A stretch of 38,798 nucleotides of DNA from NCBI GenBank assembly GCA_003696725.1, contig RFGI01000057.1:1-38798 (forward strand), written 5' to 3'. How positions within the stretch are numbered: the stretch's first letter is position 1; each line of letters opens with the position of its first letter. The DNA is from Planctomycetota bacterium (GTDB lineage Bacteria > Planctomycetota > Phycisphaerae > Phycisphaerales > UBA1924). The notes below the pieces were generated by a model. That model was not told the DNA's origin. It was given only the letters and a program-made list of their open reading frames with translations, and did no database searches. The position numbers and the translations under genes were made by a program. Of this stretch, positions 4,250 to 38,505 are shown in pieces.

Positions 4250-4255
4250 TAGACT
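4250..4255 (+). promoter_or_regulatory. putative leaderless -10 box (TAGACT) of the MEMO-family gene
   Basis: TAGACT ends six bases before the ATG at 4262. No Shine-Dalgarno is present, so transcription would start at or next to the start codon. Confidence 0.5.
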
Positions 4256-4261
4256 GCCCGT

Positions 4262-5629
4262 ATGACCCAGGAACCGACCCCCGCGCCCGGCCCGACGCCC
4301 GTCTTTGACCCGAGCGACCCCCGGCAGCAGAAACCGAAGTTGCGGCCGGTCCGTGGCTTCCCCGCCCAGCATCAGGATCAGCAGATGCTGGCCCTGGCCG
4401 ACGCCCAGCAGATCTCCGACCGCGTGGTGTTCACGACGCCGGCGGCGCAGGTCGTGCTGCCCCATTTCACCGGGGAGAAGGACCTCGACTCGATCGTCCG
4501 CGAGGTCGGGCAGGGCTTGACCCGGCCGTGGCTGGAGGCGTTCGTCGCCCAGCTCGAGGGCGCCGGGCTGATCGAAGGCAAAACCTTCACGGGCATGCTT
4601 GAGAAGTTGAAGCGGGACTTTGATTCCCGGGACGTCCTGCCGCCGGGCTCGTCGATCGCGTTCGCCGAGGCGATCGCCCAGGAGCACGCCGGGGAGCAAA
4701 CGCTCAGCGAGGAAGAGAAGACCGCGCGGGCGCCGGCGGCGCTGCGGACGCAGTTCGACCACTGGATCGACCAGGCGCTCAAAGACGCGGACGACCCGAG
4801 CCTGGACGACCTGCCGCGCGCGGTCGTGGCCCCGCACCTGGACTACGGGCGTGGGTGGCTGAACTTCGCCCATACCTACGGCCGGCTGCGCGTGGTGGAC
4901 ACGCCCGACCGGGTGATCGTCCTGGGCACGAATCACTTCGGGTTCGGCACGGGCGTCGTGGGGTGCGACAAGGGGTACGAGTCGCCGCTGGGCGTGATGC
5001 CGATGGACGCCGAGTTCAAAGACCGGCTCTGCCGGGCGCTGGGTGAGGAGGACGCCCGCCGGCTCTTCGAGCACCGCTACGACCACGAGCGCGAGCACTC
5101 GATCGAGCTTCAGATCCCCTGGCTCCAGCATGTCTTCGGGGAGGGGGGCGACCCGGCGCCGATGCCGGTGTTCGCCGCCCTCGTCCACGACCCCGCGCGC
5201 AACGCCGGGGAGTCCTACGACGGCGAGGGACTCGGGCTCCTGCCGTTCGTCGAGGGGCTCAAGCAGGCGATCGTGGAGTCGCCGGGGCGGACGCTGATCG
5301 TGGCGAGCGTGGATCTGAGCCACGTCGGCCCGCAGTTCGGGGATCAGGTGAAGATCGCCGATCTAGAAGACGAGGAGGCCACCGCGTTCCGGGAGAAGAC
5401 CATCCAGCACGACCGAGAGATGCTCCAGCTGGTGCTGGACCGCAAGCCGGAGGAACTGGTCGCGTCGATGGCTTGGATGCAAAACCCGACGCGGTGGTGC
5501 AGCGTCGGGGCGCTGGTGGCGACCCTCAAGACGGTCGAGCCGGAGTCGGTGCGGCTGTTGAACTACGCCGCCGCGGTGGACGCCCATGGCGCGGGGATGG
5601 TCTCCGCGTGCGCGATGGCCATGGCGTGA
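4262..5629 (+). CDS. MEMO-family protein (AmmeMemoRadiSam system protein B type) with N-terminal extension
   Basis: A 455-residue protein. Residues about 185-450 are the MEMO1 fold, related to LigB-type dioxygenases, with APHLDYG (His192), LGTNHFG (His225), ASVDLSHVG (His354) and RWCSVGA (Cys413). These match the three His and one Cys that define the MEMO metal site. The first 180 residues are an extra region with a winged-helix or PqqD-like look (LEAFVAQLEGAGLIEG near residue 100), so the protein is much longer than the usual 260-300 residues. The radical-SAM and AMMECR1 partners usual for this system are not next to it. Catalytic activity in this family is unsettled. The start codon follows TAGACT with no Shine-Dalgarno. 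Confidence 0.85.
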   Translation: MTQEPTPAPGPTPVFDPSDPRQQKPKLRPVRGFPAQHQDQQMLALADAQQISDRVVFTTPAAQVVLPHFTGEKDLDSIVREVGQGLTRPWLEAFVAQLEGAGLIEGKTFTGMLEKLKRDFDSRDVLPPGSSIAFAEAIAQEHAGEQTLSEEEKTARAPAALRTQFDHWIDQALKDADDPSLDDLPRAVVAPHLDYGRGWLNFAHTYGRLRVVDTPDRVIVLGTNHFGFGTGVVGCDKGYESPLGVMPMDAEFKDRLCRALGEEDARRLFEHRYDHEREHSIELQIPWLQHVFGEGGDPAPMPVFAALVHDPARNAGESYDGEGLGLLPFVEGLKQAIVESPGRTLIVASVDLSHVGPQFGDQVKIADLEDEEATAFREKTIQHDREMLQLVLDRKPEELVASMAWMQNPTRWCSVGALVATLKTVEPESVRLLNYAAAVDAHGAGMVSACAMAMA

Positions 5630-5639
5630 GCGCTCGGGT

Positions 5640-5966
5640 GTGACGCTCTCGGGGCTGGACGCGGCGCTGCTGTTCGGCGCGGGGGTGACGGCGCTGGGCG
5701 GGATCGGCGCCCTGGCGCTGGCGCGGACGGGCCGGGCGCGGATCCTGCCGATGCCCGGGGCGGCGGGCCTGAGCGCGCCGACCGCGGCGGTCATCGGCGT
5801 CACGCTGGCGCTGGTCGCCCACCAGCTGGCGGCGCCGGTGTTCGGGTGGTGGGGGCTGAAGGGCCCGATGGGGGCGCTGTTGGCCCTGGGCGTGGCGTCC
5901 TCGATCGGGTCGGTGTGGCTGGACCGCGTGGATCGCCGGCACGAGGACGGGGGCGCCGAGCCGTGA
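5640..5966 (+). CDS. small membrane protein of unknown function
   Basis: A 108-residue protein with three likely membrane helices (about residues 6-24, 42-60 and 68-84) and a charged C-terminus (DRVDRRHEDGG). I start it at GTG 5640, just after the MEMO stop, because the in-frame ATG at 5586 would lie inside the MEMO gene and add an Arg/Trp-rich non-membrane leader. No clear Shine-Dalgarno. Its stop overlaps the GTG of dtd (GTGA), so it is probably translated in one unit with the MEMO gene and dtd. I recognise no family. Confidence 0.6.
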   Translation: MTLSGLDAALLFGAGVTALGGIGALALARTGRARILPMPGAAGLSAPTAAVIGVTLALVAHQLAAPVFGWWGLKGPMGALLALGVASSIGSVWLDRVDRRHEDGGAEP

Positions 5967-6475
5967 TCGCGGTGGTCCAGCGCGTCGCGTCGGCGCGGGT
6001 CACGGCCGAGGGCGACACGGGGGCGCCGCACCTCGCGTCGATCGGGCTGGGGCTGGTCGCGCTGGTGTGCGCGGTCCAGGGGGACGGGCCGTCCGAGGCC
6101 GACTGGATCGCGGACAAGATCGCGGCCCTGCGCGTCTTTCAGGACGGAGACGGCAAGATGAACCGGTCGGTGCTGGACGTCGGCGGGGCCGTGCTGGTCG
6201 TCAGCCAGTTCACGCTCGCGGGGGAGCTGCGCAAGGGGACCCGGCCGAGCTTCACACGGGCGGCGGCGCCGGCGGTGGCCCGCCCGCTCGTCCAGCGCGT
6301 AGCCGATCGCCTGGCGCACGAGCACGGCGTGCCGGTATGGACGGGCGTGTTCGGGGCGGCCATGCGCGTCGAGCTGGTCAACGACGGCCCGGTGACGATC
6401 ATCCTCGACCGATCGGCTCGATCCAGCGCTGGGCGATCGGGAACCGCCGGCCCGTACCGAACGCCACGCTCGTGA
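5963..6475 (+). CDS. dtd: D-aminoacyl-tRNA deacylase
   Basis: A 170-residue protein that hydrolyses D-amino acids wrongly attached to tRNA, acting in the cytoplasm. It opens with the family's MIAVVQRVASARV, contains VVSQFTLAGELRKGTRPSF with the SQFTL motif, and ends its domain with NDGPVTIILD, the Gly-cisPro motif that excludes L-amino acids. Dtd normally stops at about 145-150 residues, just after that motif. Here the frame continues another 22 residues into sequence antisense to the 3' end of nadE, a 77-bp tail-to-tail overlap. The start is GTG 5963, overlapping the upstream TGA. Confidence 0.93.
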   Translation: MIAVVQRVASARVTAEGDTGAPHLASIGLGLVALVCAVQGDGPSEADWIADKIAALRVFQDGDGKMNRSVLDVGGAVLVVSQFTLAGELRKGTRPSFTRAAAPAVARPLVQRVADRLAHEHGVPVWTGVFGAAMRVELVNDGPVTIILDRSARSSAGRSGTAGPYRTPRS

Positions 6476-8087
6476 CCTTCAATCCGACCGCCGCCTGCCG
6501 GCGTTTGTACTCGGCGCGGTCGATCATCCGCACCACGCGCGCGACCGTCGCCGCGTCGATCCCGGTCTGGCGGGTGATCGTCGATGGCGCGGCCCGGTCC
6601 TCGACGTACCGCGCGATGATCGCGTCTAGCTGGTCGTACGGGGGGAGGGAGTCCTGGTCGGTCTGGTCGGGCCTCAGCTCGGCGCTGGGCGGTTTCTCGA
6701 TGGTGCGGTGCGGGATGGGAGGTCGGCCGAAGCCCCCGGCGCCTGGGTTGGCGTTGATCCAACGCGCCAGCCGGTAGACCTGCGTCTTGGCGACGTCGGA
6801 GAGGACGGCCAGCCCGCCGTTCATGTCGCCGTAGAGCGTGCAATAACCGACGGCCAGCTCACTCTTGTTGCCGGTCGAGAGCGGCAAGAGGCCCAGCTTG
6901 TTCGACAGGGCCATCACAATCAGCCCGCGCAGGCGCGACTGGACGTTCTCCTCGGCGACGCCGGGCTCGCGGTCGGCGCCCATCGACGCGAACACCGGCG
7001 CCAGGGCGGACTCGGCGGCGGCGTGCAGGGGCTCGATCGGCACGACCTCGAACCGCGCGCCCAGCGCGACGGCCAGCGCCCGCGCGTCCTCCACCGAGCC
7101 CGCCGAGGAGAACCGGCTCGGCATCCCCACCGTCAAGACGCGCTCGGGGCCCAGGGCGGCGGCGGCGATCGTCGCCGTCAGCGCCGAGTCGATCCCGCCG
7201 GAGAGGCCCACCACGGCGCGGTCGAACCCCGTCTTGCGGGCGTAGTCGCGCACGCCCAGGACCAGCGCCCGCCACAAGAGGGCCTCGTCGGGCGTCGGCC
7301 GGGACTCGGCGACGCCGGGGTTTCCGAGGTCGACAGTGAGGCTCTCGCCACCGAAGGGCTCGGTGTCGGCCAGGAGCCGCGCGCCGCCGTCCGCGGGGGC
7401 GTAGACCGCGGCGAGGCCGTCGAAGATCAGCTCGTCGTTGGCGCCGAACTGGTTGATTGACGCGACGGTGACGCCGTGCCGGTCGGCGTGTCGGCGGAGG
7501 ATGTCGCGCTGCGTGTGGCTCTTGCCGAGAACGAACGGCGTCGCGGAGGGGACGGCCACCACCCGCGCGCCGGCGCGGGCCAGCTCGGTCATCGGGTCGG
7601 GCCGGCCTCGGTACCGGCGGGCGAAGCCGGCGTCGTCGCCGCGCCACAGGTCCTCGCACACCGCCAGCCCGACGGGGACGCCCGCGACCTCGACCACCGC
7701 GGGCCGGTCGCCCGGTGTGAAGTAGCGGTCCTCGTCGAACACGTCGTAGGTCGGCAGGAGCCGTTTGTCGTAGCGCTCGATCACGGCGCCGTCGCGCAGC
7801 GCGAGGAGGCTGTTGCGGATCCCGTCCTCGGTGCGCCACGGGGCGCCGACGATGGCCGTGATCCCACGGGCCGCGGGGGCGAGGGCCTCGGCGACCTCCA
7901 TCGCGGCCTCGACGAACCCCTCCTGCCACAAGAGATCGCGGGGCGGGTAGCCCGTGACGGCCAGTTCCGGGAGGACGGCGAGGTCGGCGCCGGCGCGGCG
8001 CGCCCCCTCGATCGCCGATCGGCACAGCTCTGCGTTGCCCGCCAGGTCGCCCACGGTCGGGTTGATCGGCGCCAGCGTCAGCCGCAT
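6399..8087 (-). CDS. nadE: glutamine-dependent NAD+ synthetase
   Basis: A 562-residue two-domain enzyme making NAD+ from deamido-NAD+, ATP and glutamine. The N-terminal nitrilase-type glutaminase has the triad Glu41 (LPELAVTGYPP), Lys108 (YDKRLLP) and Cys144 (AVCEDLW). The C-terminal synthetase has the PP-loop SGGIDS at 296-301 and the STGNKSE motif. Length matches the bacterial glutamine-dependent form. No Shine-Dalgarno is seen; TATCAT ends seven bases before the ATG. The gene converges on dtd with a 77-bp overlap and is divergent from the secreted protein at 8168. Confidence 0.96.
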   Translation of the reverse strand: MRLTLAPINPTVGDLAGNAELCRSAIEGARRAGADLAVLPELAVTGYPPRDLLWQEGFVEAAMEVAEALAPAARGITAIVGAPWRTEDGIRNSLLALRDGAVIERYDKRLLPTYDVFDEDRYFTPGDRPAVVEVAGVPVGLAVCEDLWRGDDAGFARRYRGRPDPMTELARAGARVVAVPSATPFVLGKSHTQRDILRRHADRHGVTVASINQFGANDELIFDGLAAVYAPADGGARLLADTEPFGGESLTVDLGNPGVAESRPTPDEALLWRALVLGVRDYARKTGFDRAVVGLSGGIDSALTATIAAAALGPERVLTVGMPSRFSSAGSVEDARALAVALGARFEVVPIEPLHAAAESALAPVFASMGADREPGVAEENVQSRLRGLIVMALSNKLGLLPLSTGNKSELAVGYCTLYGDMNGGLAVLSDVAKTQVYRLARWINANPGAGGFGRPPIPHRTIEKPPSAELRPDQTDQDSLPPYDQLDAIIARYVEDRAAPSTITRQTGIDAATVARVVRMIDRAEYKRRQAAVGLKVTSVAFGTGRRFPIAQRWIEPIGRG

Positions 8088-8094
8088 GGGATCG

Positions 8095-8100
8095 ATGATA
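8095..8100 (-). promoter_or_regulatory. putative leaderless -10 box (TATCAT) of nadE
   Basis: On the minus strand TATCAT ends seven bases before the nadE ATG at 8087, with no ribosome binding site between them. Confidence 0.4.
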
Positions 8101-8125
8101 CGGGCGGCCCCCGTCGCGCAGCCGG

Positions 8126-8131
8126 TAGACT
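8126..8131 (+). promoter_or_regulatory. putative -10 box (TAGACT) of the secreted-protein gene
   Basis: TAGACT lies 36 bases before the ATG at 8168. Unlike the leaderless cases this gene has a Shine-Dalgarno (AGGAG), consistent with a short leader of about 30 nt. Confidence 0.4.
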
Positions 8132-8167
8132 CGTCGCGGCGGGGCGTCGCCGACCAGGAGACCCGGC

Positions 8168-9106: not shown

Positions 9107-9155
9107 GCGGCGGAATCGGCAGGCGAAGGCCGGCGGAAGGACCGATACTCGGAGC

Positions 9156-9761
9156 ATGCGCGTCTTCTTGGACGACACAGAGATCACCCCGCCGGAGCCC
9201 ACCCTGGCGGCGTGCCTGGCCGCGGGCGCCGAGGCCGGCGAGCGAGCCGGACGGGTCGTCGTCGAGGTGTGGGTGGACGGGGCGCCGGCGCCGGAGGCCG
9301 ATCTCGAGCATCCGCCGGGGCGGTCGCCCTATGCCGACGAGGTGCGGCTGGTGACGGCCGAGCCGTGCGCGCTGGTGCGCACGGTGATGCTCGACGTCGC
9401 CGAGACGCTCGGCGACACCATCGAGACCCAAGCGCGTGCGGCCGACGCGATCCAGATCGGGCGCACCGCGGAAGGATTACAAGGGCTCGGTGAGGCCCTG
9501 CGGGCGTGGGACGCGGCCCGCCGCGCGGTCGACGAGGGGTGCGCGCTGATCCGGTCACGGGGCGGGCCCGACCCGGCGCCGGCGGTCGACCCGGCTCTGG
9601 TCGAGAGCCTCGGAGCGGCGCTGGCGTCGGTGAAAGAGGCGCTGGCGCGGGAGGACTGGGCCCTGCTGGCGGACCTGCTGGCGTACGATCTCAAGGAGCA
9701 GGCCGAGGCGTGGCGCCGCGAGTTGGCGCGCCTCGCCGACGCCGTGCAGCCGGCGCCGTAA
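9156..9761 (+). CDS. hypothetical cytoplasmic protein
   Basis: A 201-residue acidic, Ala-rich protein I do not recognise. It begins MRVFLDDTEI and continues with an acidic N-terminal half and a C-terminal half of amphipathic helices (residues about 100-200, e.g. LASVKEALAREDWALLADLL), suggesting a helical bundle. No signal or membrane segment. The ATG at 9156 is favoured because upstream in-frame sequence is the antisense-like tail of the preceding gene; the ribosome binding site is weak (GAAGGA, 13 bases away). It runs directly into the next unknown gene (21-bp gap), so the two may work together. Confidence 0.65.
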   Translation: MRVFLDDTEITPPEPTLAACLAAGAEAGERAGRVVVEVWVDGAPAPEADLEHPPGRSPYADEVRLVTAEPCALVRTVMLDVAETLGDTIETQARAADAIQIGRTAEGLQGLGEALRAWDAARRAVDEGCALIRSRGGPDPAPAVDPALVESLGAALASVKEALAREDWALLADLLAYDLKEQAEAWRRELARLADAVQPAP

Positions 9762-9782
9762 TCCGGCCCGGAGGGAGCGCCC

Positions 9783-11415: not shown

Positions 11416-11454
11416 CGGTGTGCTCCTTGCGCGGGCCTATACTGGCCGCCCGAC

Positions 11455-20210: not shown

Positions 20211-20588
20211 TCAGGGCCCCCGACGTGTCCCGGCGCGTCCGAGAAGGGCCGCACAGACCAGGCCGACCGCGATCCCGGCAAGGTCCGCGAAGAAGTCGGC
20301 CAGATCGGCGTCGCGGCCGATCCCGGGCAGGGCCTGGGTCAGTTCGTCGACCGCCGCGTACAGCACGGCCGCGAGCGCCAGCCGCCGCCGGGCGCCCGGA
20401 CCGTCGCCGCACCAGCCGGTCAGGCTCAGGAGCACCGTCCAGCAGGCGAAGGCGCCGGCGTGCACGGCCTTGTCCAGGTGTGGGATCGCCGGCCCTCGGA
20501 TCTCGATCCTCGGCCAGTGCGCCGCGACGGCCCAAGCGATCGCGAACCCGACGAACGCGAGCCGCGCTACGGTCCTACGTCCGATCAC
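20211..20588 (-). CDS. VanZ family membrane protein
   Basis: A 125-residue protein with three to four membrane helices and the VanZ-like pattern PHLDKAVHAGAFACW, a Glu-Gln motif (VDELTQALPGIGRDADLADFFADLAG), and a short basic tail. The family includes teicoplanin-resistance VanZ but most members have unknown roles. The ATG at 20588 overlaps the stop of the ParA gene by four bases (ATGA), so it is translationally coupled to that gene. Confidence 0.82.
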   Translation of the reverse strand: MIGRRTVARLAFVGFAIAWAVAAHWPRIEIRGPAIPHLDKAVHAGAFACWTVLLSLTGWCGDGPGARRRLALAAVLYAAVDELTQALPGIGRDADLADFFADLAGIAVGLVCAALLGRAGTRRGP

Positions 20589-21511
20589 GGCGCCGGGCGC
20601 GCGGGCTCGGCCGTGGCGCGCACCACAACGGCCGGCGGTGGGGCGGGCTCGCCCTGCTTGAGCATTTCAAGATGCGCGAGCACGGCGTCGGCGAGGGCCT
20701 GATAATCGCGCGCCCCGGGGGCGCCCTCGGCGTACTCGAAGATGGTCTGTCCGAAGCTCGGCGCCTCGGCAAGTTTGATGTTCCGCCGCACGCCCGGGCG
20801 GAAGACCACCCCGTCGGCCCAAGGCGCGTCGGTCCCGCGCGCCGACTCGAAGAACGCTTCCAAGTCCGCCACGACCTCCCGCCCGTGGGTGGTCTGCTCC
20901 TCGTGCATGCACAGGACCACGCCGGCGACGCGCAGCGACGGGTTCACGCCGTGGCTCATCCGGCGGACGGTCTCGAGCAGCTTGCTCAGGCCCTGCAGCG
21001 CCAGGAACTGCGCCTGCATCGGGACCACTACGGCGGAGGCCGCGGCCAGGGCGTTGAGGGTCAAGAGCCCCAGCGACGGCGGGCAATCCAGGAGGGCCAC
21101 GTCGAACCGGCCGCGCAGGGTGTCCAGGGCCGCCCCCAGCCGGGCCGTCCGCGCGGGCTCGGCGGCGAGCTCGGCCTCGGCGGCGGCGAGGTCCACCTCC
21201 GCCGGCATGAGCCAGAGCCGGTGTCGAGACTCGACCACGGCGTCCGGCGCCCGGTCGGGCTCCAGGAGAGCGTCGTACACCGAGGCGCCCAGGTCCGCCG
21301 GGTCGTGCCCCAGGTGGAGCGTGGCGTGGGCCTGAGGGTCGAGGTCCACCACGAGGACCCGCCGACCGGCCGACGCCATCGCCGCGGCGAGGTTGACCAC
21401 GGTGGTCGTCTTGCCCACGCCGCCTTTTTGATTCATGAAGGCCAGGGTGACGGGCGCACCGCCGGGCGCGGGGGGGTCGTCGGGCCGTCCGTGGTCCGAG
21501 CGTCTGGCCAT
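20585..21511 (-). CDS. ParA/MinD-family ATPase
   Basis: A 308-residue deviant Walker ATPase. MNQKGGVGKTTTVVNLAAAMA (residues 26-46) holds the KGGVGKT P-loop with its signature Lys. VLVVDLDPQAHATLHLG and DVALLDCPPSLGLLTLNAL are the A-prime and B motifs of the ParA/Soj type. The N-terminal 25 residues are an Arg/Pro/Gly-rich extension without a helix-turn-helix. No ParB gene or clear parS site is next to it, so it may position a cargo other than the chromosome. TAGACT ends eight bases before the ATG and there is no Shine-Dalgarno. Confidence 0.93.
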   Translation of the reverse strand: MARRSDHGRPDDPPAPGGAPVTLAFMNQKGGVGKTTTVVNLAAAMASAGRRVLVVDLDPQAHATLHLGHDPADLGASVYDALLEPDRAPDAVVESRHRLWLMPAEVDLAAAEAELAAEPARTARLGAALDTLRGRFDVALLDCPPSLGLLTLNALAAASAVVVPMQAQFLALQGLSKLLETVRRMSHGVNPSLRVAGVVLCMHEEQTTHGREVVADLEAFFESARGTDAPWADGVVFRPGVRRNIKLAEAPSFGQTIFEYAEGAPGARDYQALADAVLAHLEMLKQGEPAPPPAVVVRATAEPARPAP

Positions 21512-21519: not shown

Positions 21520-21525
21520 AGTCTA
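21520..21525 (-). promoter_or_regulatory. putative leaderless -10 box (TAGACT) of the ParA gene
   Basis: The minus-strand TAGACT ends eight bases before the ParA ATG at 21511. The 56-bp divergent gap also holds TACGCT for the opposite gene, and no -35 or Shine-Dalgarno fits for either. Confidence 0.5.
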
Positions 21526-21553
21526 CCGGCCCCCCGCCCGCCGCGCGCCGGCC

Positions 21554-21559
21554 TACGCT
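21554..21559 (+). promoter_or_regulatory. putative leaderless -10 box (TACGCT) of the CPBP gene
   Basis: TACGCT ends eight bases before the ATG at 21568. The two divergent promoters would fire from within about 28 bp of each other, each starting at or beside its start codon. Confidence 0.4.
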
Positions 21560-27481: not shown

Positions 27482-28921
27482 TCAGCGCCGGCGGGCGCCC
27501 GCCTTGGCGCCGGGGCGTTCACGCTCGCGCCCCCGGATCAGCAGCCGAACGGGAACCTCCTCGAACGGCGTCATCTCCGCCAGCCGGTTGAGCAGGTACC
27601 GCTCGTACTGCGGCGTAAAGAGCCGCTCGTCGTTGACCTTCAGCACGATCGTCGGCGGCGAGGTCGCCACCTGCGCCACGTACAGGATCTTGGCCTGCCG
27701 GCCCAGGCGGGAGGTCGGCCCGCGCTGGGCCAGGATCGCCTCGAAGACGTCGTTGAGCCGGCTCGTGGGCACGCGCTGTCGGCCCTGCTCGAAGAGATCG
27801 AACGCGACGGCGACCGCCTCGCGCACGCCCGTGCCCTGAAGCGCCGAGACGAACGCGATCGGCGCCCGCGCGACGCCGGGCAGCGCCTCCGCGAGGTACC
27901 CGCGGTAGTGCTCGGCCGTCACCGCCCGGCCGGTGCGCCCGGGCCGGCCCTCGGCGAGGTCCCACTTATTCACCACGATGACACAGGGCTTGTAGCGTTC
28001 GGCGATCTGACTCGAGAGCGTCTTCTCGACCTTCGAAACGCGCTGCGTCGCGTCGAGCATCAGCAGCGCCACGTCCGCCCGATCGATCGACTGGACCGCC
28101 CGCTGCTGGGCGAACCACTCGACGCGGTTGGGCAGCCTGGCCCGCTTGCGGAGCCCCGCGGTGTCGATCGCCACCAGCGTGCGGCCGTCCATCTCGAACC
28201 GCACGTCCACCGCGTCGCGCGTGGTCCCCGCGATCTCCGACACGATCACCCGCTCCTCGCGGGCCAGGGTGTTGACCAGGGTGCTCTTGCCGGCGTTGCG
28301 CTTGCCGACGATCGCCAGGCGCATCGCCGGGTCCGCGTCGCGTCCCTCGGCGGACTCGGGCACGAGCCCGTACAGGCGATCGAGGAACGCCCGCCGGAGG
28401 TTTTTGGTCTGGGCCGAGACCATCAGCGGCTCGCCGAAGCCCAGGGCCGAGGCCTCCAGGGCGTGCGCCTCCCAGCGGTCGGCGTCGACCTTGTTGGCCA
28501 CCGGGACGACCTTCGCCGCGGCGCCGCTGACCCGCTCGCGCAGCGCCTGGGCGAAGGCCTCGTCCAGAGCGGTCACGCCGGCCTGGGCGTCGGTGACAAA
28601 GAGGATCAGGTCGCTGGTCCGCACCGCGTGCTCGATCTGGGCCTCGATGGGCCCGCTGAGGCGCGACAGGTCCTCGCCGATCTCGTTGAACCGGGCGCCC
28701 TGGGCGGTGTAGACGCCGAACCCGCCCGTGTCGACGACCTCGACCAGGCGCGCCGGCTCGGTCCGCAAGGGACCATGGAGTTCAACAACCGCCGAGACCC
28801 GGTCGCGCGTCACGCCGGGCGTGGGGTCCACGATCGACACCCGCTCCCGGGCGATCATGTTCAGGAGCGACGACTTGCCGACGTTCGGCCGGCCCACGAT
28901 GGCGATCCGCGGCAGGGGCAT
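27482..28921 (-). CDS. der: ribosome assembly GTPase Der (EngA)
   Basis: A 479-residue protein with two GTPase domains in tandem, needed for 50S subunit assembly. The first has GRPNVGKSS, DTGGFG and NKVDAD. The second has GKRNAGKST, DTAGLRKRARL and NKWDLAE. The C-terminal KH-like domain ends in Arg-rich GAKAGARRR. ATG 28921 begins the conserved MPLPRIAIVGRPN. TAGGAT on the minus strand ends eight bases before it and there is no Shine-Dalgarno. Neighbours are the signalling operon (convergent) and the HicAB pair (divergent). Confidence 0.95.
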   Translation of the reverse strand: MPLPRIAIVGRPNVGKSSLLNMIARERVSIVDPTPGVTRDRVSAVVELHGPLRTEPARLVEVVDTGGFGVYTAQGARFNEIGEDLSRLSGPIEAQIEHAVRTSDLILFVTDAQAGVTALDEAFAQALRERVSGAAAKVVPVANKVDADRWEAHALEASALGFGEPLMVSAQTKNLRRAFLDRLYGLVPESAEGRDADPAMRLAIVGKRNAGKSTLVNTLAREERVIVSEIAGTTRDAVDVRFEMDGRTLVAIDTAGLRKRARLPNRVEWFAQQRAVQSIDRADVALLMLDATQRVSKVEKTLSSQIAERYKPCVIVVNKWDLAEGRPGRTGRAVTAEHYRGYLAEALPGVARAPIAFVSALQGTGVREAVAVAFDLFEQGRQRVPTSRLNDVFEAILAQRGPTSRLGRQAKILYVAQVATSPPTIVLKVNDERLFTPQYERYLLNRLAEMTPFEEVPVRLLIRGRERERPGAKAGARRR

Positions 28922-28929: not shown

Positions 28930-28935
28930 ATCCTA
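28930..28935 (-). promoter_or_regulatory. putative leaderless -10 box (TAGGAT) of der
   Basis: TAGGAT on the minus strand ends eight bases before the der ATG at 28921, with no ribosome binding site in the gap. Confidence 0.4.
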
Positions 28936-29173: not shown

Positions 29174-29193
29174 TATCATGTCAAGATATGATA
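29174..29193 (+). promoter_or_regulatory. inverted repeat overlapping the hicA start codon
   Basis: TATCAT (29174-29179) and ATGATA (29188-29193) form a perfect inverted repeat with an eight-base spacer. It covers the hicA ATG at 29178. The surrounding 29160-29210 is much AT-richer than its neighbours. It is a good candidate operator for the RHH domain of the HicB-like antitoxin, giving autoregulation. Confidence 0.45.
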
Positions 29194-29432
29194 AACTTAT
29201 TATTCGAGTCGAGGCCCACCGGAAGGGCCCGTTCCCGTTCCCGGACCTCCGACGCTATCTTGAGATACACGGCCGCCGATTGGCGCGGGTCCAGGGCTCT
29301 CACGCGATTTTCCGCGATCAAGCCGGCCGGGCGATGAAGTCGATCCCTATCGTCAACGGCCGGGAGGTTCGAGCGTCCTATGTCCGCGAAGTCGTCCGGA
29401 TCATCCAAGCGGAACGGGAAGGAGCCGATTGA
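29178..29432 (+). CDS. hicA: HicA-family mRNA interferase toxin
   Basis: An 84-residue protein with the double-stranded RNA-binding-like HicA fold. The catalytic His is His42 in RVQGSHAIF, followed by MKSIPIV and a C-terminal helix (VREVVRIIQAE). HicA toxins cut mRNA during translation; this is known of the family. It is longer than typical 55-60-residue HicA. AGGA lies seven bases before the ATG. It overlaps the antitoxin gene by 53 bp. Its first bases are AT-rich compared with flanking genes, as expected for a transferred toxin-antitoxin module. Confidence 0.8.
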   Translation: MSRYDKLIIRVEAHRKGPFPFPDLRRYLEIHGRRLARVQGSHAIFRDQAGRAMKSIPIVNGREVRASYVREVVRIIQAEREGAD

Positions 29433-29835
29433 AGGCCCGTTCGATCCTGCCGTGTTGCGTCGCGCCAAGCGACACGCCGGGCGGTTCGGCCGACTCACGT
29501 TGTTCGATTCCATTTCTGAAGAATGGGTGTGCCGATGTGTCGAGCTCCCGGACGCGATCGGCGCCGGCGCCACCGCCCGGGAAGCCGAGAAAGCGCTGAC
29601 GGAGAATCTCACCGTCTGGTTCGCCTATCTCGAGGAGCAAGGCGAGCCTTGGCCCGAGCCAGCGTCGGCGCCTCGATCCGAGCAGGTCAACGTCCGTTTG
29701 ACCGCACAAGAGCGGGCGGAGTTCGAAGCGGCGGCGAAGCGGATGGGGCTCTCCAGCGTGGCGGATCTGATCCGTCTCGGTGTCCTCGATCTGATCCGAG
29801 CACAACGCGACCGCGATCGGCGGCGGACAGGCTGA
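29380..29835 (+). CDS. hicB: HicB-family antitoxin with ribbon-helix-helix domain
   Basis: A 151-residue protein. The partially degraded RNase H-like HicB domain covers about residues 30-95 (EEWVCRCVELPDAIGAGATAREAEKALTENL, given here in pieces: ELPDAIGAG, TAREAEKAL). A C-terminal ribbon-helix-helix DNA-binding domain (VNVRLTAQERAEFEAAA, GLSSVADLIRLG) follows. The ATG at 29380 lies inside hicA, 53 bp before its stop, so the N-terminus may be later; a GTG near 29450 is possible. It should neutralise HicA and repress the operon. It converges on the ABC transporter with a one-bp gap. Confidence 0.8.
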   Translation: MSAKSSGSSKRNGKEPIEGPFDPAVLRRAKRHAGRFGRLTLFDSISEEWVCRCVELPDAIGAGATAREAEKALTENLTVWFAYLEEQGEPWPEPASAPRSEQVNVRLTAQERAEFEAAAKRMGLSSVADLIRLGVLDLIRAQRDRDRRRTG

Positions 29836-29836
29836 A

Positions 29837-31683: not shown

Positions 31684-33111
31684 TCAGCCGCCCCCGGCCG
31701 CGGGACAAGCGAGCCCGTGCGCCAGCGCATACAGCCGGGCCAGATCGCGCCAGTACCCGGGATAGGTCTTGGCGACGCACGCCGGGTCGCGGACGGCCAC
31801 GTTCGGCCGGCGCAGGCCCACCAGCGACAGGGCCATGGCCATGCGGTGGTCGTGGTAGGTGTCGAATACGACCGGCTCGTCCCGCGCCGAGGGGGGGATC
31901 GGCTCGACGGTGAGCGACTCGCCCGTGGCCCGCACGCCGGCGCCGACCTTCGTGAGCTCGGAGACGGTCGCGGCCAGTCGGTCGCACTCCTTCACCGGCA
32001 GCGAGCCCAGGCCGGTGATCGTCGTCGGCCCGTCGGCGAAGACGGCCAGGGCCGCCAGCGTCATCGCCGCGTCGGGCATGTCGGAGAAGTCGGCCTCGAC
32101 GCCGGCCAGCCCCGCGGGCCCCCGCACCGAGACGGACTGGGACCCGACCTCGGCCTCGGCGCCCATGCGCGCCAGCGTCCGGACGAACATGGTGTCGCCC
32201 TGGAGGCTCCCGCTGTGCAGGTCGGGGATCGTGACCCGCGCGCCGGGCGTCAGCGCCGCCGCGGCCAACAGGTAGGTCGCGCCGCTGGCGTCGGGCTCGA
32301 TCTCGATGTCGAACCCGCGCAGCGGCCCCGGCGCGACAACAAGCGAGCGGGCGTCCTCCGACGCCGAGGCGTGCCTGGCGCCGAGCCGGCGCAGGAGCTC
32401 GACGGTCATGCGGACGTACGACGCGCTCGGCGGCGTCGCGGGCAGCTCGATCGACACGCCCTCGGAGGTCCACGGCCCGATCATCAACAGCGCCGAGATG
32501 AACTGGCTCGACGCCTGCGTCGGTAGGTGCAGGTTCCCGCCGACGAGCGGCCCGCCGTCGGCCGGGGGCTCGATCCGCACGGGCGGATGGCCGTATTCGC
32601 CGAGGTACTCGACGCGCACCTTCATGGCCCGCAACGCCGCGACGAGCCCGTCGATGGGCCGCTGGCGCATGCGCGGGGATCCGTCGATGGTGGTCGCGCC
32701 ATCGGCCAGCCCCGCCACGGCGGACAGGAACCGGACGGCGGTGCCCGCGTTCTCCAGGTTGAGCTCCCCGGCGCCGCGCGGGTGGCCCGCGACGCCTTCC
32801 ACTCTGAACGCGGGCAGGTCCGGGTCGTCGGCGTCCTCGCGCACGACGGCGCCGAACCGGGCCAGCCCCGCCGTCATCACCCGCACATCGTCGGCGTCAA
32901 GCAGCGGGCGGTAGAGCATGCTCACGCCCCCGGCGAGCGACGCGAGCGCCAGGGCCCGGTTGGTCAGGCTCTTCGAGCCCGGCGGGCGGACAACGGCCTC
33001 GAACGGTCCCGGGATCGGCGCCAGCGGCAGAGGGTCCGGCATCGCGCCGAGCGGCCGGCGGAGGGTCTCGATCATCGCCGCCGGGCCCGCGGGATCAGGC
33101 GTCCCCGTCAT
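31684..33111 (-). CDS. aroA: 3-phosphoshikimate 1-carboxyvinyltransferase (EPSP synthase)
   Basis: A 475-residue enzyme of the shikimate pathway joining PEP to shikimate 3-phosphate. Motifs are PPGSKSLTNRALALASLAGG, NAGTAVRFLSAVAGLADG (the phosphate-binding loop, where GTAVRF has Ala rather than Gly/Thr variants), LPVKECDRLA, and DTYHDHRMAM. ATG 33111 is preceded by GAGG at six bases and overlaps groES by 17 bp, suggesting coupling; GTG 33114 is an alternative. The length fits the family, about 430-470. Confidence 0.94.
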   Translation of the reverse strand: MTGTPDPAGPAAMIETLRRPLGAMPDPLPLAPIPGPFEAVVRPPGSKSLTNRALALASLAGGVSMLYRPLLDADDVRVMTAGLARFGAVVREDADDPDLPAFRVEGVAGHPRGAGELNLENAGTAVRFLSAVAGLADGATTIDGSPRMRQRPIDGLVAALRAMKVRVEYLGEYGHPPVRIEPPADGGPLVGGNLHLPTQASSQFISALLMIGPWTSEGVSIELPATPPSASYVRMTVELLRRLGARHASASEDARSLVVAPGPLRGFDIEIEPDASGATYLLAAAALTPGARVTIPDLHSGSLQGDTMFVRTLARMGAEAEVGSQSVSVRGPAGLAGVEADFSDMPDAAMTLAALAVFADGPTTITGLGSLPVKECDRLAATVSELTKVGAGVRATGESLTVEPIPPSARDEPVVFDTYHDHRMAMALSLVGLRRPNVAVRDPACVAKTYPGYWRDLARLYALAHGLACPAAGGG

Positions 33112-33433
33112 CACTTGCCTCGCGGCGGAAGACCGCGACCACGTCCTCGACCGGGATCACGTACAGGCGGTTGTCGCCCTCGAAATCCACGGGCACCCCG
33201 TGCTTGGGATTGAACAGCACGCGGTCGTAGCGGCGGATGGGGTAGTCCTCATCGCGTTCGACCTGCGCCGAGATGGAGACCACCCGACCCGTGAGGGTGG
33301 GGATCTCGATCTTGTCGGGCAGGTGGATGCCCGCCTTGGTCTGCTTCTTGTCCTCATCCTTACGGATCAGGACGCGCGCCCCGATGGGCTCGACGATCTC
33401 GAGCGACTTCGCGGGTTGGCGAGCCGAGGGCAT
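33095..33433 (-). CDS. groES: GroES-like co-chaperonin
   Basis: A 112-residue protein of the Cpn10 fold. IGARVLIRKDEDKKQTKAGIHLPD includes the mobile-loop motif AGIHLP that contacts GroEL. RRYDRVLFNPKHGVPVDF and VIPVEDVVAVF complete the barrel. It is slightly longer than the usual 95-100 residues and diverged enough that it could be a GroES paralogue. No groEL is next to it. TACACT ends six bases before the ATG and there is no Shine-Dalgarno. It sits between ftsH and aroA and overlaps aroA. Confidence 0.85.
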   Translation of the reverse strand: MPSARQPAKSLEIVEPIGARVLIRKDEDKKQTKAGIHLPDKIEIPTLTGRVVSISAQVERDEDYPIRRYDRVLFNPKHGVPVDFEGDNRLYVIPVEDVVAVFRREASDDGDA

Positions 33434-33439
33434 GCGGGC

Positions 33440-33445
33440 AGTGTA
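33440..33445 (-). promoter_or_regulatory. putative leaderless -10 box (TACACT) of groES
   Basis: On the minus strand TACACT ends six bases before the groES ATG at 33433, inside the 31-bp gap after ftsH. It would give groES-aroA its own promoter. Confidence 0.45.
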
Positions 33446-33464
33446 GACGGCGCCCGGGGGGGCG

Positions 33465-35498
33465 TCAGGCCGGGGCGGGCGCCAGGCCCGCGGGCGGGGC
33501 GTCGTCCTCGGGCCGGGGGCGTGCCTGGCCCGGCGGCTCGGGGGCGCGCTTCTTGGCCTCGCCCGCGAGAAGGTCGCTGACGCTGGGTTTGGCAAGCGTC
33601 TCGCCGCGCATCAGGGCGCGCACCTCGTCGGCGGTGAGGGTCTCGTGCTTGAGCAGGGCCTGGGCCACGCGCTCGACCTGGTCCCAGCGCTCGTTCAGGA
33701 GGCGCTCGGCGTCGGCGTAGGCCTCGTCCGCGATCCGGCGGACTTCCTCGTCGACGACCCGCGCGGTCTCCTCCGAATACTCGCGCTCGGCGACGAACCG
33801 CTCCTGCCCGTCGGCGTCGCTGTAGCGGACGAAGCCCAGCCGCTCGCTCATGCCCCACTCGAGGACCATGGCGCGGGCGATCTTGGTGACCTGAGCGATG
33901 TCCATGCTGGCGCCGCTGGAGACGTCCCCGGTCTTGCGCTGCTCGGCGATCCGTCCGCCGCACGCCACGCGGAGCATGGCCTTGAGCCACCGGGCGCCGT
34001 AGGTGAACCGGTCCTTGGTGGGCAGCGACATGCTGGCGCCGCCGGTCTCCCCGCGCGGGATGATGGTCACCTTGTGCAGGGGGTCGGCGTCTTCGAGCGA
34101 TTCCTGCAAGACCGCGTGGCCGGCCTCGTGGTACGCCGTGGCCACGCGTTCGTCCTCCTCGACGGCCCGGCTCTTGCGGGCCCGCCCGAACTTGACCTTG
34201 TCGCGCGCCTCCTCGAGGTCCTCCTGCTCGATGAAGTCCTTCTCGGCGAGGGTCGCGATGATCGCCGACTCGTTGATGATCGCCGCGAGCTCGGCGCCGC
34301 TGAACATCGGCGTGCCCCGGGCGATCTTCTCGAGGTCCACACCGGGGCCGAGCCGGACCTTCTTCGCATGCACCTGGAGGATCGCGAGCCGGCCCTGCAC
34401 GTCGGGCAGGGGCACGACCACCTCGCGGTCGAACCGACCGGGGCGGGTCAGGGCCGGGTCCAGCACGTCCACCCGGTTGGTCGCGGCGATCACGATCACC
34501 TGGTCGGATGTCTCGAACCCGTCCATCTCCACGAGGATGGCGTTGAGGGTCTGCTCGCGCTCGTCGTGTCCGCCTGTCGTGAACCCGGCGCCGCGCTTGC
34601 GGCCCACGGCGTCGATCTCATCCAGGAAGATGATGCACGGCGACGACTCCTTGGCCGTCTTAAACAGGTCGCGCACGCGGCTGGCGCCCACACCGACGAA
34701 CATCTCCACGAAGTCCGACCCGGAGATCGAGAAGAAGGGGACGTCCGCCTCGCCCGCGATGGCCTTGGCCAGCAGGGTCTTGCCCGTGCCCGGCGGGCCG
34801 ACGAGCAGCACCCCGCGCGGGATGCGGGCGCCGAGCCGGGTGAACTTCTTGGGATTCTTGAGGAACTGGATGATCTCCTCGACCTCGTCCTTGGCCTCCT
34901 CGATGCCCGCCACGTCGGCGAAGGTGACGTTGGTCATCTCCTTCTGGAAGACGCGGTGCTTGGAGCGGCCGAAGTTGCCCAGCATCCCGCCCCCGCCCCC
35001 GGCGTTGCGCAGCCCGCGCAGGATCATCACCCAGATCACCACGATCAGGAGCACGGTGATCAGCAGCGGGTTGAACAGGATCATCTGCCACAGCGGCGGG
35101 CCGCCGGCGTCCTTGAACTTCCCGCCCGTCAGGTCGTTGAGCCACTCGGCGTACTTGTCCTTGATCGTCGGGTCGATCTCGAACCGCACGGGGCGCTGGG
35201 GCCCGTCCACGCCCGCCTCGCGCACGGCGCGGATCTCCCGGTCGCGCAGCTCGACCGTGTCCTCCACGATCTGCCCGGCGACGTACAGGCTCTTGAACTC
35301 GTCCCAGGTCTTGAGCGTCTCCACCTGCCCGCTGACGTTCTGGAAGATCAGCATCAGCATGGCCACCAGGACGAACACCATGACCCACCCGAACAGCCCC
35401 CGGCTGAACCGGGTCGGCGGGGGGGGCGGGGTCCGGCCGGGCTTGCCCTCGGGCTTGCCGGGGCTGGGTCGTCGGGGCTGCTGATCGTCCTGCGGCAT
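33465..35498 (-). CDS. ftsH: ATP-dependent zinc metalloprotease FtsH
   Basis: A 677-residue membrane AAA protease degrading membrane and regulatory proteins. Two membrane helices (about 34-53 and 143-162) flank a periplasmic domain of about 90 residues. Walker A is GPPGTGKT at 234-241, Walker B IIFLDEID at 289-296, and the arginine-finger region [18 protein letters not shown] at 340-357. Zinc motif HEAGH is at 457-461, and the third ligand is in [11 protein letters not shown]. The C-terminal tail is Pro-rich. No Shine-Dalgarno is clear. Upstream is a 144-bp gap with a strong inverted repeat and TATCCT. Confidence 0.97.
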
Positions 35499-35569
35499 GC
35501 TGGGCTCGGTGAGGGATGGGCGTCGTCGACGCGTCCGGCGGGTTGGCTATCGGGCGTTTCGGCGGCCGG

Positions 35570-35614
35570 CTTGCCCGCGATTCGGCTCGGCTCAGACGCC
35601 GGCGGGCAAGGATA
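35570..35614 (-). promoter_or_regulatory. inverted repeat overlapping the putative ftsH -10 box
   Basis: CTTGCCCGC (35570-35578) and GCGGGCAAG (35602-35610) form a perfect nine-bp inverted repeat with a 23-base centre. A minus-strand TATCCT at 35614-35609 overlaps the right arm. It could be a repressor site for ftsH, or a transcript hairpin if transcription starts further upstream. Confidence 0.35.
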
Positions 35615-35642
35615 GGCCCCGCCATGGCCGGCCGGAGGCCGA

Positions 35643-36164
35643 TCACCACGACGATCGAAGCTCCGCGACGATGTCCCGCGCCAGGGCGTCAACCGCGGCC
35701 AGCCGCCCCGCGTCGATCGGCTCGCCCGCCCCCCGCATGGGGATGAAGGCGCCCTGCGCTCTGAACCCCCGCCGTTCGATGACGGACCCCCGGCCGCGCC
35801 GCCCGACCCGGAAGGTGAAATCGACGGCCAGGTCGTAGGCCAGCTCCTGCGTCAGGCCCGTGGTCGTGTCCCGGCCCAGCCGGCGCAGCGACGCCTCGGT
35901 GACCACGCCGGTGAGCGTCGCGCCGCCAACGTCGGCGACGCGCCACGGCGTCGATCGGTTGATCTCTTTGATGATCGCCTCGGTGAGCAGGGCGCCGAGC
36001 TCCGGCTCGCGTGTGCGGTTGCGCCACAGCGGCACGCTGACCGTCCGCACCGCGGCGTCGTGCCCCGTCCCGAACGCGTACCCCTCGGCCGGGTCCGTCG
36101 CGCAGCCGACGATCGCCATCGGGGCGAGCGCGACGACCACGATCGCGGCCCACGCTCGGTTCAC
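35643..36164 (-). CDS. lptE: LPS-assembly lipoprotein LptE-like
   Basis: A 173-residue lipoprotein. The signal runs to the lipobox Cys in AIVGC. The mature domain has the LptE pattern: VPLWRNRTREPELGALLTEAIIKEI, then RVADVGGATLTGVVTEASLRRL and a C-terminal helix (DALARDIVAELRSSW). LptE plugs the LptD outer-membrane barrel that inserts LPS. Start GTG 36164 overlaps the TGA of the BamD-like gene (GTGA). The gene order with a BamD-like protein supports an outer-membrane biogenesis pair. Confidence 0.78.
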   Translation of the reverse strand: MNRAWAAIVVVALAPMAIVGCATDPAEGYAFGTGHDAAVRTVSVPLWRNRTREPELGALLTEAIIKEINRSTPWRVADVGGATLTGVVTEASLRRLGRDTTTGLTQELAYDLAVDFTFRVGRRGRGSVIERRGFRAQGAFIPMRGAGEPIDAGRLAAVDALARDIVAELRSSW

Positions 36165-37165
36165 GGCTCGCCCCCGCCGGGTCCGGGCTCGTCTTCGGGG
36201 ACCGGCCAGCCGCGCTTGACCATGATGGCCCGGGCGTCCTGGGCCGCGGGCGACCCCGGGTGTTTGCGGATGAGCCGGCCCAGCGTGAAGCGTGCGCTGG
36301 GCCGGTCGCCACGCTTGAGGTACCACCTCGCCCCGGCCAGCATCTGGTCGGCCAGGGCGTCGTCGATCCTCTGGACGAGCCGGTCGTCGAGCGCGGTGCG
36401 CTCGGCCGCGGCCGGGAACGCGCGGGCGAAGGCGCGGGCCTGCTCGGCGGCGTCGATCAGTGTCGAGCCGTCGTACTCCGGGCCCTTGTACCTCGCGACG
36501 TTGACACGGATGCGCTGCTCCATCGCCCGCCTGATGTTGGGCCCGTTTGGGTAGTTGGCGACGTACAGGTCGTACGCGATCGCGGCGAGCTCGAGGTCCC
36601 CCCGCCGGAGGTAGAAATCCGCCAGCTCGATGGCCGCGCGCTCGGCGAGCTCGCTCCCCGGCAGGCGCTCCTGCACACGGATGAGCGTCTCTTCCGCGAT
36701 GTCTCCGGCGCCGAGGATCCGCACCCCCAGCCACCGGCGGCGTAGCCCGCGGGCGTATCGCGTGGCGATGCCCAGCTCGCGCTCGATCGCCAGCACGTAC
36801 TCCTCGCTCTGCGGGAAGCGCTGGATGACCTCACGCTCGTAATCGAACAGCGCCTTGAACTCCCGGCCCATGGCGGCGAGCGCGTCGCCGCGCAGCAGGA
36901 ACGCCCGCGGGCGCCACGGCGAGTCCGAGTCGCCGTGGGCCCGGATCCACCGGTCGGCCAGGGCGCGCGCCGCCGCGGGCTGGTCCGAGGCCAAGAGCGC
37001 CGCGATCTCGTTCATCACGGCCTCGTCCGATCCCTCGGCCGGCGCTCTCTCGAGCACCCACTCGCCGGACTCGTCGAGGGTGAACTCCTCGGCCTGACCC
37101 AGCGCGGGCCGAGCCATAACCAGCGCGCCGAGCAGGAGCAACCAGGCTGGTAGAGCGCGGGTCAT
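36161..37165 (-). CDS. BamD-like TPR outer-membrane assembly protein
   Basis: A 334-residue exported protein. The signal peptide WLLLLGALVMARPALG should be cut before QAEEF, and there is no lipobox Cys, unlike classic lipoprotein BamD. The mature part is tandem TPR-type helices (WRPRAFLLRGDALAAMG, AERAAIELADFYLRRGDLELAAIAYDLY in pieces) with the BamD-like YDLYVANYPNGPN and PGSPAAQDARAIM spacing. TATCGT ends nine bases before the ATG and there is no Shine-Dalgarno. Coupled by GTGA to lptE. It may be a BamD homologue or a YbgF/CpoB-like TPR protein. Confidence 0.78.
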   Translation of the reverse strand: MTRALPAWLLLLGALVMARPALGQAEEFTLDESGEWVLERAPAEGSDEAVMNEIAALLASDQPAAARALADRWIRAHGDSDSPWRPRAFLLRGDALAAMGREFKALFDYEREVIQRFPQSEEYVLAIERELGIATRYARGLRRRWLGVRILGAGDIAEETLIRVQERLPGSELAERAAIELADFYLRRGDLELAAIAYDLYVANYPNGPNIRRAMEQRIRVNVARYKGPEYDGSTLIDAAEQARAFARAFPAAAERTALDDRLVQRIDDALADQMLAGARWYLKRGDRPSARFTLGRLIRKHPGSPAAQDARAIMVKRGWPVPEDEPGPGGGEP

Positions 37166-37174
37166 GCGCCGCGC

Positions 37175-37180
37175 ACGATA
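37175..37180 (-). promoter_or_regulatory. putative leaderless -10 box (TATCGT) of the BamD-like gene
   Basis: TATCGT on the minus strand ends nine bases before the ATG at 37165, with no ribosome binding site between. It fits TANNNT but is among the weaker cases. Confidence 0.35.
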
Positions 37181-37208
37181 CCATCGGCGCGCGGGCGGCG
37201 CGGGTCCG

Positions 37209-38441
37209 TCACCGGCGCGGGTTGCGCGCACGGGTCTTGCGCGGGTCACGACGGCGGCTGGCGGCCGAACCGTCCGGGGACGCCTCGCGCTCGGGCTGGG
37301 CGCCCGTGTCGGTCGTCGGCGTCGCCGGGGGCGCATCGGCGGCCGGGGCGTCGGTGGGGCGGGCGAAGATCATGCGGCCGGCGTTGGTCTGGAGGCTGCT
37401 CGTGACGCGCAGGGCGGCGGTCCGGCCGATCAAATCGGCGCCGTCGTCCGCGACCACCATCGTCCCGTCGTCGAGGAAGCCGACGGCCTGCCCCGGCTGC
37501 TCGCCCGGCCGGACGAGGCGGACCTCCAGCCGGTCGCCCGGCGCCACGGCCAGACGCATCGCCGAGGCGAGTTCGTTCAGGTTCACCGCGGACACGCCCT
37601 TGATGCCCGCAACCCGGGCCAGCGCCGAGTCTGTCGTCACAACCGTGCCGGGCAGCCTCGCCGCCAGATCGATCAGCATCTGGTCGGCGCCCGCGCCGGC
37701 GGCGTCGGATTCGTCGACGGAGACATCCAGGAGGGCCTCGCGCTGGAGGCGGCTGACGATCTCCAGACCGCGCCGGCCGCGCGTCCTCTTGAGCCCGTCG
37801 CCGGAGTCGGCGAGCGTCTGGAGCTCGTCGACGACGAACCGCGGGATGACGATCGGCGCCTGGATCAGCCCCGTCCGGCACACGTCGAGGATCCGCCCGT
37901 CGATCAGCGCCGCCGAGTCCAGGATCAGCGGCCGGGGCCCGCGCACCTGCCGGGCGAACTCCACGTAGGGGATCACCAGCCGGAACTGGTCCTGCGTCTG
38001 CAGCACGATGCTCACCGCGAGGTACACCGTCGCGATCCCGATCAGGATCTTGATCGTGTCGATAATCCGAGAGCCCGTGATCTCGTACACCTCGGCGATC
38101 CGGTCCAGCAGGAACGACAGCGCGATCGCCGCGGCGACCCCCGCGACGATGCCGAAGAACACGCCGGACACCGTCGCGATCTTCTTCTCGGGCGTCAGCA
38201 CGTCGATCGCGATGACCCCGAACGCCAGGGTCAGCCCGAACAGCAGCACCCAGGGCCAGCCGGTGACGAGGTTGATCTCCCAATCGCCGATCTGCTGCGG
38301 GTTCTGGCCGATGTCCAGGACGTAAAAAAATGTGACCAGGATGATCACCGCGATCAGCAGGATCCGGAGCAGGCGCAGGAGCGCCCCGCGCCCGGCGGCG
38401 GCGTCGTCGGTCGGGGTGGCCGGCGTCTTCGATCGGGCCAT
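37209..38441 (-). CDS. membrane PIN/TRAM-domain protein (YacL-like)
   Basis: A 410-residue protein. Four membrane helices lie at about residues 23-42, 62-80, 88-112 and 130-148. A PIN nuclease domain (171-290) has PLILDSAALIDGR with Asp175, FVVDELQ with Glu206, DADQML-type Asp253, and TTDSALA with Asp271. A TRAM RNA-binding domain follows (about 295-375), then a disordered basic tail (SRRRDPRKTRARNPRR). This matches the YacL family of membrane-tethered PIN/TRAM proteins. TAGACT ends seven bases before the ATG. RNA cleavage is by family analogy. Confidence 0.9.
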   Translation of the reverse strand: MARSKTPATPTDDAAAGRGALLRLLRILLIAVIILVTFFYVLDIGQNPQQIGDWEINLVTGWPWVLLFGLTLAFGVIAIDVLTPEKKIATVSGVFFGIVAGVAAAIALSFLLDRIAEVYEITGSRIIDTIKILIGIATVYLAVSIVLQTQDQFRLVIPYVEFARQVRGPRPLILDSAALIDGRILDVCRTGLIQAPIVIPRFVVDELQTLADSGDGLKRTRGRRGLEIVSRLQREALLDVSVDESDAAGAGADQMLIDLAARLPGTVVTTDSALARVAGIKGVSAVNLNELASAMRLAVAPGDRLEVRLVRPGEQPGQAVGFLDDGTMVVADDGADLIGRTAALRVTSSLQTNAGRMIFARPTDAPAADAPPATPTTDTGAQPEREASPDGSAASRRRDPRKTRARNPRR

Positions 38442-38448
38442 CGGGCGA

Positions 38449-38454
38449 AGTCTA
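38449..38454 (-). promoter_or_regulatory. putative leaderless -10 box (TAGACT) of the PIN/TRAM gene
   Basis: On the minus strand TAGACT ends seven bases before the ATG at 38441, with no Shine-Dalgarno in the gap. Confidence 0.5.
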
Positions 38455-38499
38455 CGCGCCGGGAGCCCCGGGGCGGTGGAGCCGGCCGGTCTCGGCGCG

Positions 38500-38505
38500 T
38501 ACACT
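38500..38505 (+). promoter_or_regulatory. putative -10 box (TACACT) of ffs
   Basis: TACACT lies 20 bases before the predicted 5' end of the SRP RNA, and is back to back with TAGACT of the opposite gene. No -35 hexamer is clear. Confidence 0.4.

Follow-up and report, generated by a model that had tools for sequence, protein, structure and literature searches.

In bacteria, the closest described counterparts of the gene starts analyzed here are found in Deinococcus-Thermus, in which approximately 30–46% of genes are leaderless and led by a TANNNT hexamer (Zheng 2011, PMC3160421; Life Sci Alliance 2025, PMC12340547). The latter report also describes most TANNNT genes of D. radiodurans as devoid of a −35 element and reports experiments in which the −10 motif alone sufficed as a promoter (PMC12340547). 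In Actinobacteria, approximately 20% of genes are leaderless (Zheng 2011, PMC3160421). Here, we have examined TANNNT boxes at gene starts in a 38,798-nucleotide (nt) contig of a Planctomycetota bacterium belonging to the order Phycisphaerales (GenBank assembly GCA_003696725.1, contig RFGI01000057.1; this whole stretch is referred to as the window), as well as in the rest of its genome and in other genomes of the phylum.

Of 953 bacterial genomes analyzed previously, 207 were found to have leaderless genes, with no Planctomycetes listed among the groups concerned (Zheng 2011, PMC3160421). One planctomycete was flagged by bulk base composition (Nakagawa et al. 2017, PMC5397173); unlike this hint, which is a compositional signal in one species, the evidence described below concerns the motif, its position and individual genes. 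The accessible part of the GeneMarkS-2 work, in which leaderless transcription is predicted in 21.6% of bacterial species, does not name Planctomycetota, and a scan of the whole bacterial domain reported in PMC12340547 (Fig. S7) may include the phylum. In the open-licence literature, a search for Phycisphaer- together with leaderless returned one match, on variation of the anti-Shine-Dalgarno sequence, whose accessible part does not report leaderless genes; because only open-licence papers were covered, such an absence is weak evidence of novelty.

An original prediction, made from the window, had proposed that TANNNT is the −10 box of leaderless transcripts at some gene starts and that Shine-Dalgarno (SD) sequences mark others. 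Based on sequence alone, we consider it very probable that TANNNT is a lone −10 element which, placed at start codons, gives rise to leaderless messenger RNAs (mRNAs). Sequence statistics establish that at approximately 11% or more of genes the box stands alone, 6–8 nt ahead of the start codon and with no −35 element, that it nearly excludes an SD sequence, and that it is used at RNA genes and conserved. In the mechanism that we infer from this, the housekeeping sigma factor would recognize TANNNT as its −10 element, RNA polymerase would begin at, or no more than ~3 nt from, the A of ATG, and the ribosome would take up the 5′-terminal start codon without SD pairing. Other genes would have an SD sequence in a 5′ leader and be transcribed from a −35/−10 promoter or from some different signal located farther upstream. 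The arrangement in Deinococcus-Thermus is the same in the position of TANNNT (~6–7 nt before the start codon), in the presence of TACACT among the commonest forms, in the lack of −35 elements at leaderless genes and in the coexistence of a class with ribosome-binding sites (RBS), and differs in phylum and in the share of genes (~11% or more here versus ~30–46% there). The likeness to Actinobacteria such as Mycobacterium and Streptomyces lies in high GC content, the TANNNT box and the SD genes alongside, and the difference in lineage (Zheng 2011, PMC3160421).

Two classes of gene starts

The assembly comprises 2.46 Mb in 215 contigs (94% complete, 2% contamination), of which the window is contig 94. 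Gene-level analyses were based on 940 kb (38% of the genome, 72.5% GC) read as stretches from 45 contigs, in which 801 genes were called by a three-periodic Markov model blind to upstream sequence. Among 780 starts, TANNNT was found 43, 28 and 17 times at gaps of 6, 7 and 8 nt between box and start codon, 5–6 times at gaps 9–11 and approximately 1.5 times per position elsewhere, and 3794 internal in-frame ATGs had approximately one TANNNT per gap position. Boxes at gap 6–8 were present at 88 of 785 starts, whereas 200 dinucleotide shuffles of the upstream DNA gave 2.7 on average and never more than 8. The original prediction was to be given up if no enrichment over shuffled upstream sequence appeared; the enrichment is there, and compositional chance is rejected as the source of the boxes.

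The same position stands out when no genes are called: throughout the genome, TANNNT occurs 97 times at gap 6 before an ATG, compared with 31 occurrences for the reversed pattern and 20 at gap 14. Box-bearing starts are spread over 29 of the 45 contigs, and thus no stray foreign contig lies behind the signal. If alternative starts within a few bits are allowed, the number of boxed starts becomes 108–116 of ~790, whereas unrelated decoys mostly give 3–20. It seems that at least ~11% of genes (at least one in nine) are boxed, and this proportion is a lower bound because the 428 starts that have neither a box nor an SD sequence include miscalled ones.

Box and SD sequence are nearly exclusive of each other, both in this genome (6 starts with both, 82 with a box only, 264 with an SD only and the 428 with neither; p = 1.7e-10) and in related Phycisphaerales (5 with both, 158 with a box only and 267 with an SD only; p = 3e-20). 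An unbiased search of spaced patterns with three of six positions fixed returned TANNNT at gap 6–8 as the top motif of the class without SD (82 versus 3.2 expected, z = 43.9); for the SD class it returned only purine-rich SD patterns, and TANNNT was absent from the list. The 16S anti-SD of this genome is intact (GGCTGGATCACCTCCTT). A preference of boxed genes for AUG is slight in this genome (ATG at 72 of 88 boxed versus 204 of 264 SD starts) and clear in the relatives (149 of 163 versus 204 of 267). A sharp peak of TANNNT between −12 and −15 had been predicted for the class without SD only; it was found, and it is repeated in related Phycisphaerales. The proposal of two start classes is thereby borne out, and the classes differ in promoter type as well, since −35 elements are missing from the leaderless one.

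RNA genes, −35 elements and the role of the box

In bacteria, the 5′ end of RNase P RNA is usually that of the primary transcript. Across the order, TANNNT is located 2–11 nt before this end in 29 of 31 genomes, including the one studied here; 17 boxes in these 31 genomes are at gap 6 or 7, and unrelated decoy motifs have no peak, while the decoy T...AT follows the box in part, having letters in common with it. With the 5′ end as primary end, the +1 position is thus calibrated to 6–7 nt after the box, an offset identical to that of the ATG at leaderless genes. Given a −10 role and this offset at RNase P RNA, transcription should therefore begin no more than ~3 nt from the start codon. In addition, tRNA genes of this genome have boxes 8–13 nt upstream, and in the window TACACT (38500–38505, + strand) lies 27 nt before the Rfam model start of the untranslated signal recognition particle (SRP) RNA gene (38533–38631, +), which is divergent from the PIN/TRAM gene; no −35 hexamer was seen at this SRP RNA box.

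Boxes that lie upstream of leadered genes are paired with TTG at canonical spacing, with counts at the two best offsets of 8 + 10 versus ~1 in this genome and 7 + 17 versus ~2 in the relatives. For the comparison of −35 elements between classes, which was restricted to intergenic distances of at least 45 nt, TTG with a spacer of 16–18 nt preceded 32 of 160 boxes upstream of other genes (4.0 off-register) but only 1 of 62 start-codon boxes (1.3 by chance; p = 2e-4). The contrast was weaker in the relatives (41 of 239 versus 8 of 119 start-codon boxes, p = 0.008). The −35/−10 pairs of this genome are mostly located at least 40 nt upstream of the start codon. Promoter type thus tracks translation mode, as −35 elements are missing at start-codon boxes and present upstream of other genes. 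Taken with RNase P RNA, tRNA and SRP RNA, these pairs support the originally proposed role of TANNNT as a −10 element of leaderless genes.

The same observations bear on the suggestion that TANNNT might be a translation-initiation element rather than a promoter, which draws on the location of the box near the SD position and in place of the SD. The occurrence of boxes at untranslated RNase P RNA, tRNA and SRP RNA genes and their pairing with −35 elements at leadered genes speak against it and leave it a negligible probability; as a purely translational signal, TANNNT is rejected by its presence at untranslated RNA genes. On these sequence patterns, the box is a promoter −10 element and no translation signal.

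Boxed starts are scarce in tight operons, with 7 of 82 at a co-directional distance of ≤20 nt compared with 171 of 666 other starts (p = 3e-4), and box genes accordingly appear to lead transcription units. Together with the enrichment ~12 nt upstream of starts over dinucleotide shuffles, the alternation with SD sequences in a genome that retains them and the −10 role of the box, this agrees with TANNNT-led leaderless genes as defined by Zheng 2011 (PMC3160421). The depletion in tight operons argues against a reading in which the box would be a secondary promoter and the main mRNAs would come from farther upstream, to be translated without SD in some other way (e.g. through S1 or an open structure). 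Such a reading gains something from the fact that certain boxed genes closely follow a co-directional neighbor (an FtsH-like gene ends 31 nt before groES) and that boxes without a −35 element may be weak; nevertheless, the distance between box and start codon is tightly constrained, for which a secondary promoter would have no need, and it is kept at groES despite diverging flanks. We regard a secondary role as quite improbable.

Several points weigh against lone −10 boxes with leaderless mRNAs. Some of the starts are wrong, having been assigned with a simple caller of our own making, and part of the gene-level contigs was chosen from a list of box matches, a bias of which the whole-genome pattern counts are free. 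The purine expected at the +1 position of −35/−10 promoters did not stand out (n = 35 and 43). There is also a shoulder at gaps 9–12, which suggests that some mRNAs have a leader of a few bases. In the relatives, it amounts to 19, 10, 13 and 12 at gaps 9, 10, 11 and 12 versus ~3, which favors the possibility that the boxes are −10 elements and transcription begins 1–6 nt before the ATG. However, the RNase P RNA 5′ end, 6–7 nt after its box, coincides with the ATG of the gap-6/7 majority in this genome, and leaders so short would be functionally almost the same as none, since an SD sequence would not fit into them. We regard ultra-short leaders, in place of none, as unlikely.

Conservation at orthologous starts and distribution in the phylum

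Conservation was examined in 80 named groES loci, nearly all from Phycisphaerales or from metagenome-assembled genomes (MAGs) of Phycisphaerae. When the most downstream possible start is considered, 62 of 79 loci have a box at gap 5–9, compared with 1–4 of 79 for decoy patterns other than T...AT, which overlaps the box; apart from this, the 24 nt upstream have a mean identity of only 30%. The box is present in 39 of the 40 loci with a single possible start codon. The latter number stands against misassigned start codons, i.e. true starts that lie downstream behind an SD sequence, for which the uncertainty of start calling in DNA of 72% GC could be invoked; since shuffles never exceeded 8 as compared with 88 observed, the probability left to wrong starts or chance as a general explanation is very small.

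At other orthologous starts, the box was found in 15 of 30 loci for PIN/TRAM and 15 of 29 for ParA, compared with 0 of 30 for an SD-led control gene of the window (an HDOD-histidine kinase); ortholog loci are mutually related and such counts are not independent. Some ParA orthologs have changed over to SD sequences. In the parA of the nearest relative (locus L209, G246:C6), TACACT persists ~26 nt before the ATG and is separated from it by GGAGG; this gene seems to have switched between leaderless and leadered expression on a similar promoter. On these sequence comparisons, groES would be the most consistently leaderless gene tested in Phycisphaerales, whereas in D. radiodurans it is the textbook leadered gene with a −35/−10 promoter and an RBS. 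As a separate observation, public MAG records under the titles Cyanobacteria, Kuenenia, Limnohabitans and Singulisphaera (L069, L105, L121 and L102) contain contigs with groES of the Phycisphaerales type and are probably misnamed or misbinned.

Of 195 Planctomycetota genomes, 72 had clearly more occurrences at gap 6 than at gap 14 and 96 did not; raw counts are informative in high-GC genomes only, because ATG and TANNNT are too common in AT-rich ones for these to be judged. Gene-level profiles, for which few stretches per genome were at hand, were usable for G147, G122, G059, G200 and G103, and G088, G192 and G113 had too little sequence to be included. A peak was present in G122 of family f45 (14 of 74 starts at gaps 6–9) and in G059 of family f28 (7 of 60 starts), and a weak one in G147 of family f30; two genomes of family f26 had no peak in these profiles, with 2 of 135 starts at gaps 5–9. 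On balance, we favor the view that, in Phycisphaerales and several other high-GC lineages of Planctomycetota, promoter architecture sets the mode of translation (leaderless from −10-only promoters; leadered and SD-dependent from −35/−10 promoters), with genes such as parA switching between the two and groES having stayed leaderless throughout the order.

Boxed genes of the window and wider meaning

All eight TANNNT hexamers originally listed were recovered at their coordinates and strands when the sequence was read back. On the plus strand, TAGACT (4250–4255) is at gap 6 to ATG 4262 of a Memo-family gene (4262–5629; Pfam PF01875), and TACGCT (21554–21559) is at gap 8 to ATG 21568 of a CPBP/Rce1-like protease gene divergent from parA. 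On the minus strand are TATCAT (8095–8100, gap 7 to ATG 8087) of NAD synthase (6399–8087; Pfam PF02540), TAGACT (21520–21525, gap 8 to ATG 21511) of the ParA/Soj ATPase (20585–21511), TAGGAT (28930–28935, gap 8 to ATG 28921) of der/EngA (27482–28921), TACACT (33440–33445, gap 6 to ATG 33433) of groES (33095–33433), TATCGT (37175–37180, gap 9 to ATG 37165) of a BamD/YfiO-like gene (36161–37165) and TAGACT (38449–38454, gap 7 to ATG 38441) of the PIN/TRAM gene (37209–38441). The two weaker members, TATACT (11438–11443, +; gap 11 to ATG 11455, a short-leader or weaker case) and GATACT before ATG 31672, were borne out as well. The absence of SD sequences at boxed starts holds in general, the exception being der, whose AGGA lies solely within its own box TAGGAT. 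The ten starts assigned to the SD class have GGAG-type motifs and no close TANNNT, for example 1706–1708 (+, GGAGG), the others being at 2769 (−), 8168, 9783, 11415 (−), 16035, 20008, 22485, 23470 and 24093; the strand of 20008 had to be corrected to minus. That such hexamers are rare by chance in this DNA was also correct: less than 0.1 box at gap 6–9 is expected over ~35 window starts, because the two strands of the window together contain no more than 43 TANNNT. Of these, ten are located 6–9 nt before an ATG, and eight of the ten are gene starts.

Seven of the eight boxed genes are supported by Pfam (Memo, NAD synthase, ParA-type ATPase, CPBP/Rce1, Der/EngA, GroES and YfiO/BamD). The remaining protein had no Pfam match at the cut-off used, its name PIN/TRAM being that of the original prediction, and has matches in 61 of 61 genomes of the order searched. 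Eight of these matches (in G231, G028, G240, G033, G248, G034, G238 and G038) have one in-frame stop (TGA/TAA) each, possibly because alignments overran the true start or end or because the copies are damaged. The boxes of parA (minus) and the CPBP protease gene (plus), at 21520–21559, face apart within a 56 bp intergenic region, and the two genes would thus be served by one bidirectional promoter of extreme compactness.

The two TANNNT-ATG pairs that are no gene starts are at an AT-rich inverted repeat (29174–29193; TATATCAT...ATATGATA), which precedes the genes of an AT-rich island flanked by der and an ABC transporter and overlaps the start. The island contains two open reading frames (29178–29432 and 29380–29835, both +), the first a HicA-like toxin gene whose Pfam match is weak (E 1e-4) and does not reach the curated cut-off, the second with a NikA-like match, and looks like an acquired hicAB-type toxin-antitoxin pair.

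Both the kind of gene start and its architecture are known and of the Deinococcus type; what is new is the lineage, the conservation at groES and the contrast within the phylum. Deinococcus-type leaderless expression would hereby be extended to Planctomycetota at the levels of motif, position, orthologs and promoters. The 5′ end of RNase P RNA provides a cheap calibration for calling leaderless genes from sequence in uncultured lineages, and gene-finding programs that do not model leaderless genes will put starts in the wrong place in such genomes. Finally, the contrast between lineages (Phycisphaerales, f28, f45 and, weakly, f30 versus f26) makes gain and loss of this mode of expression testable inside a single phylum.

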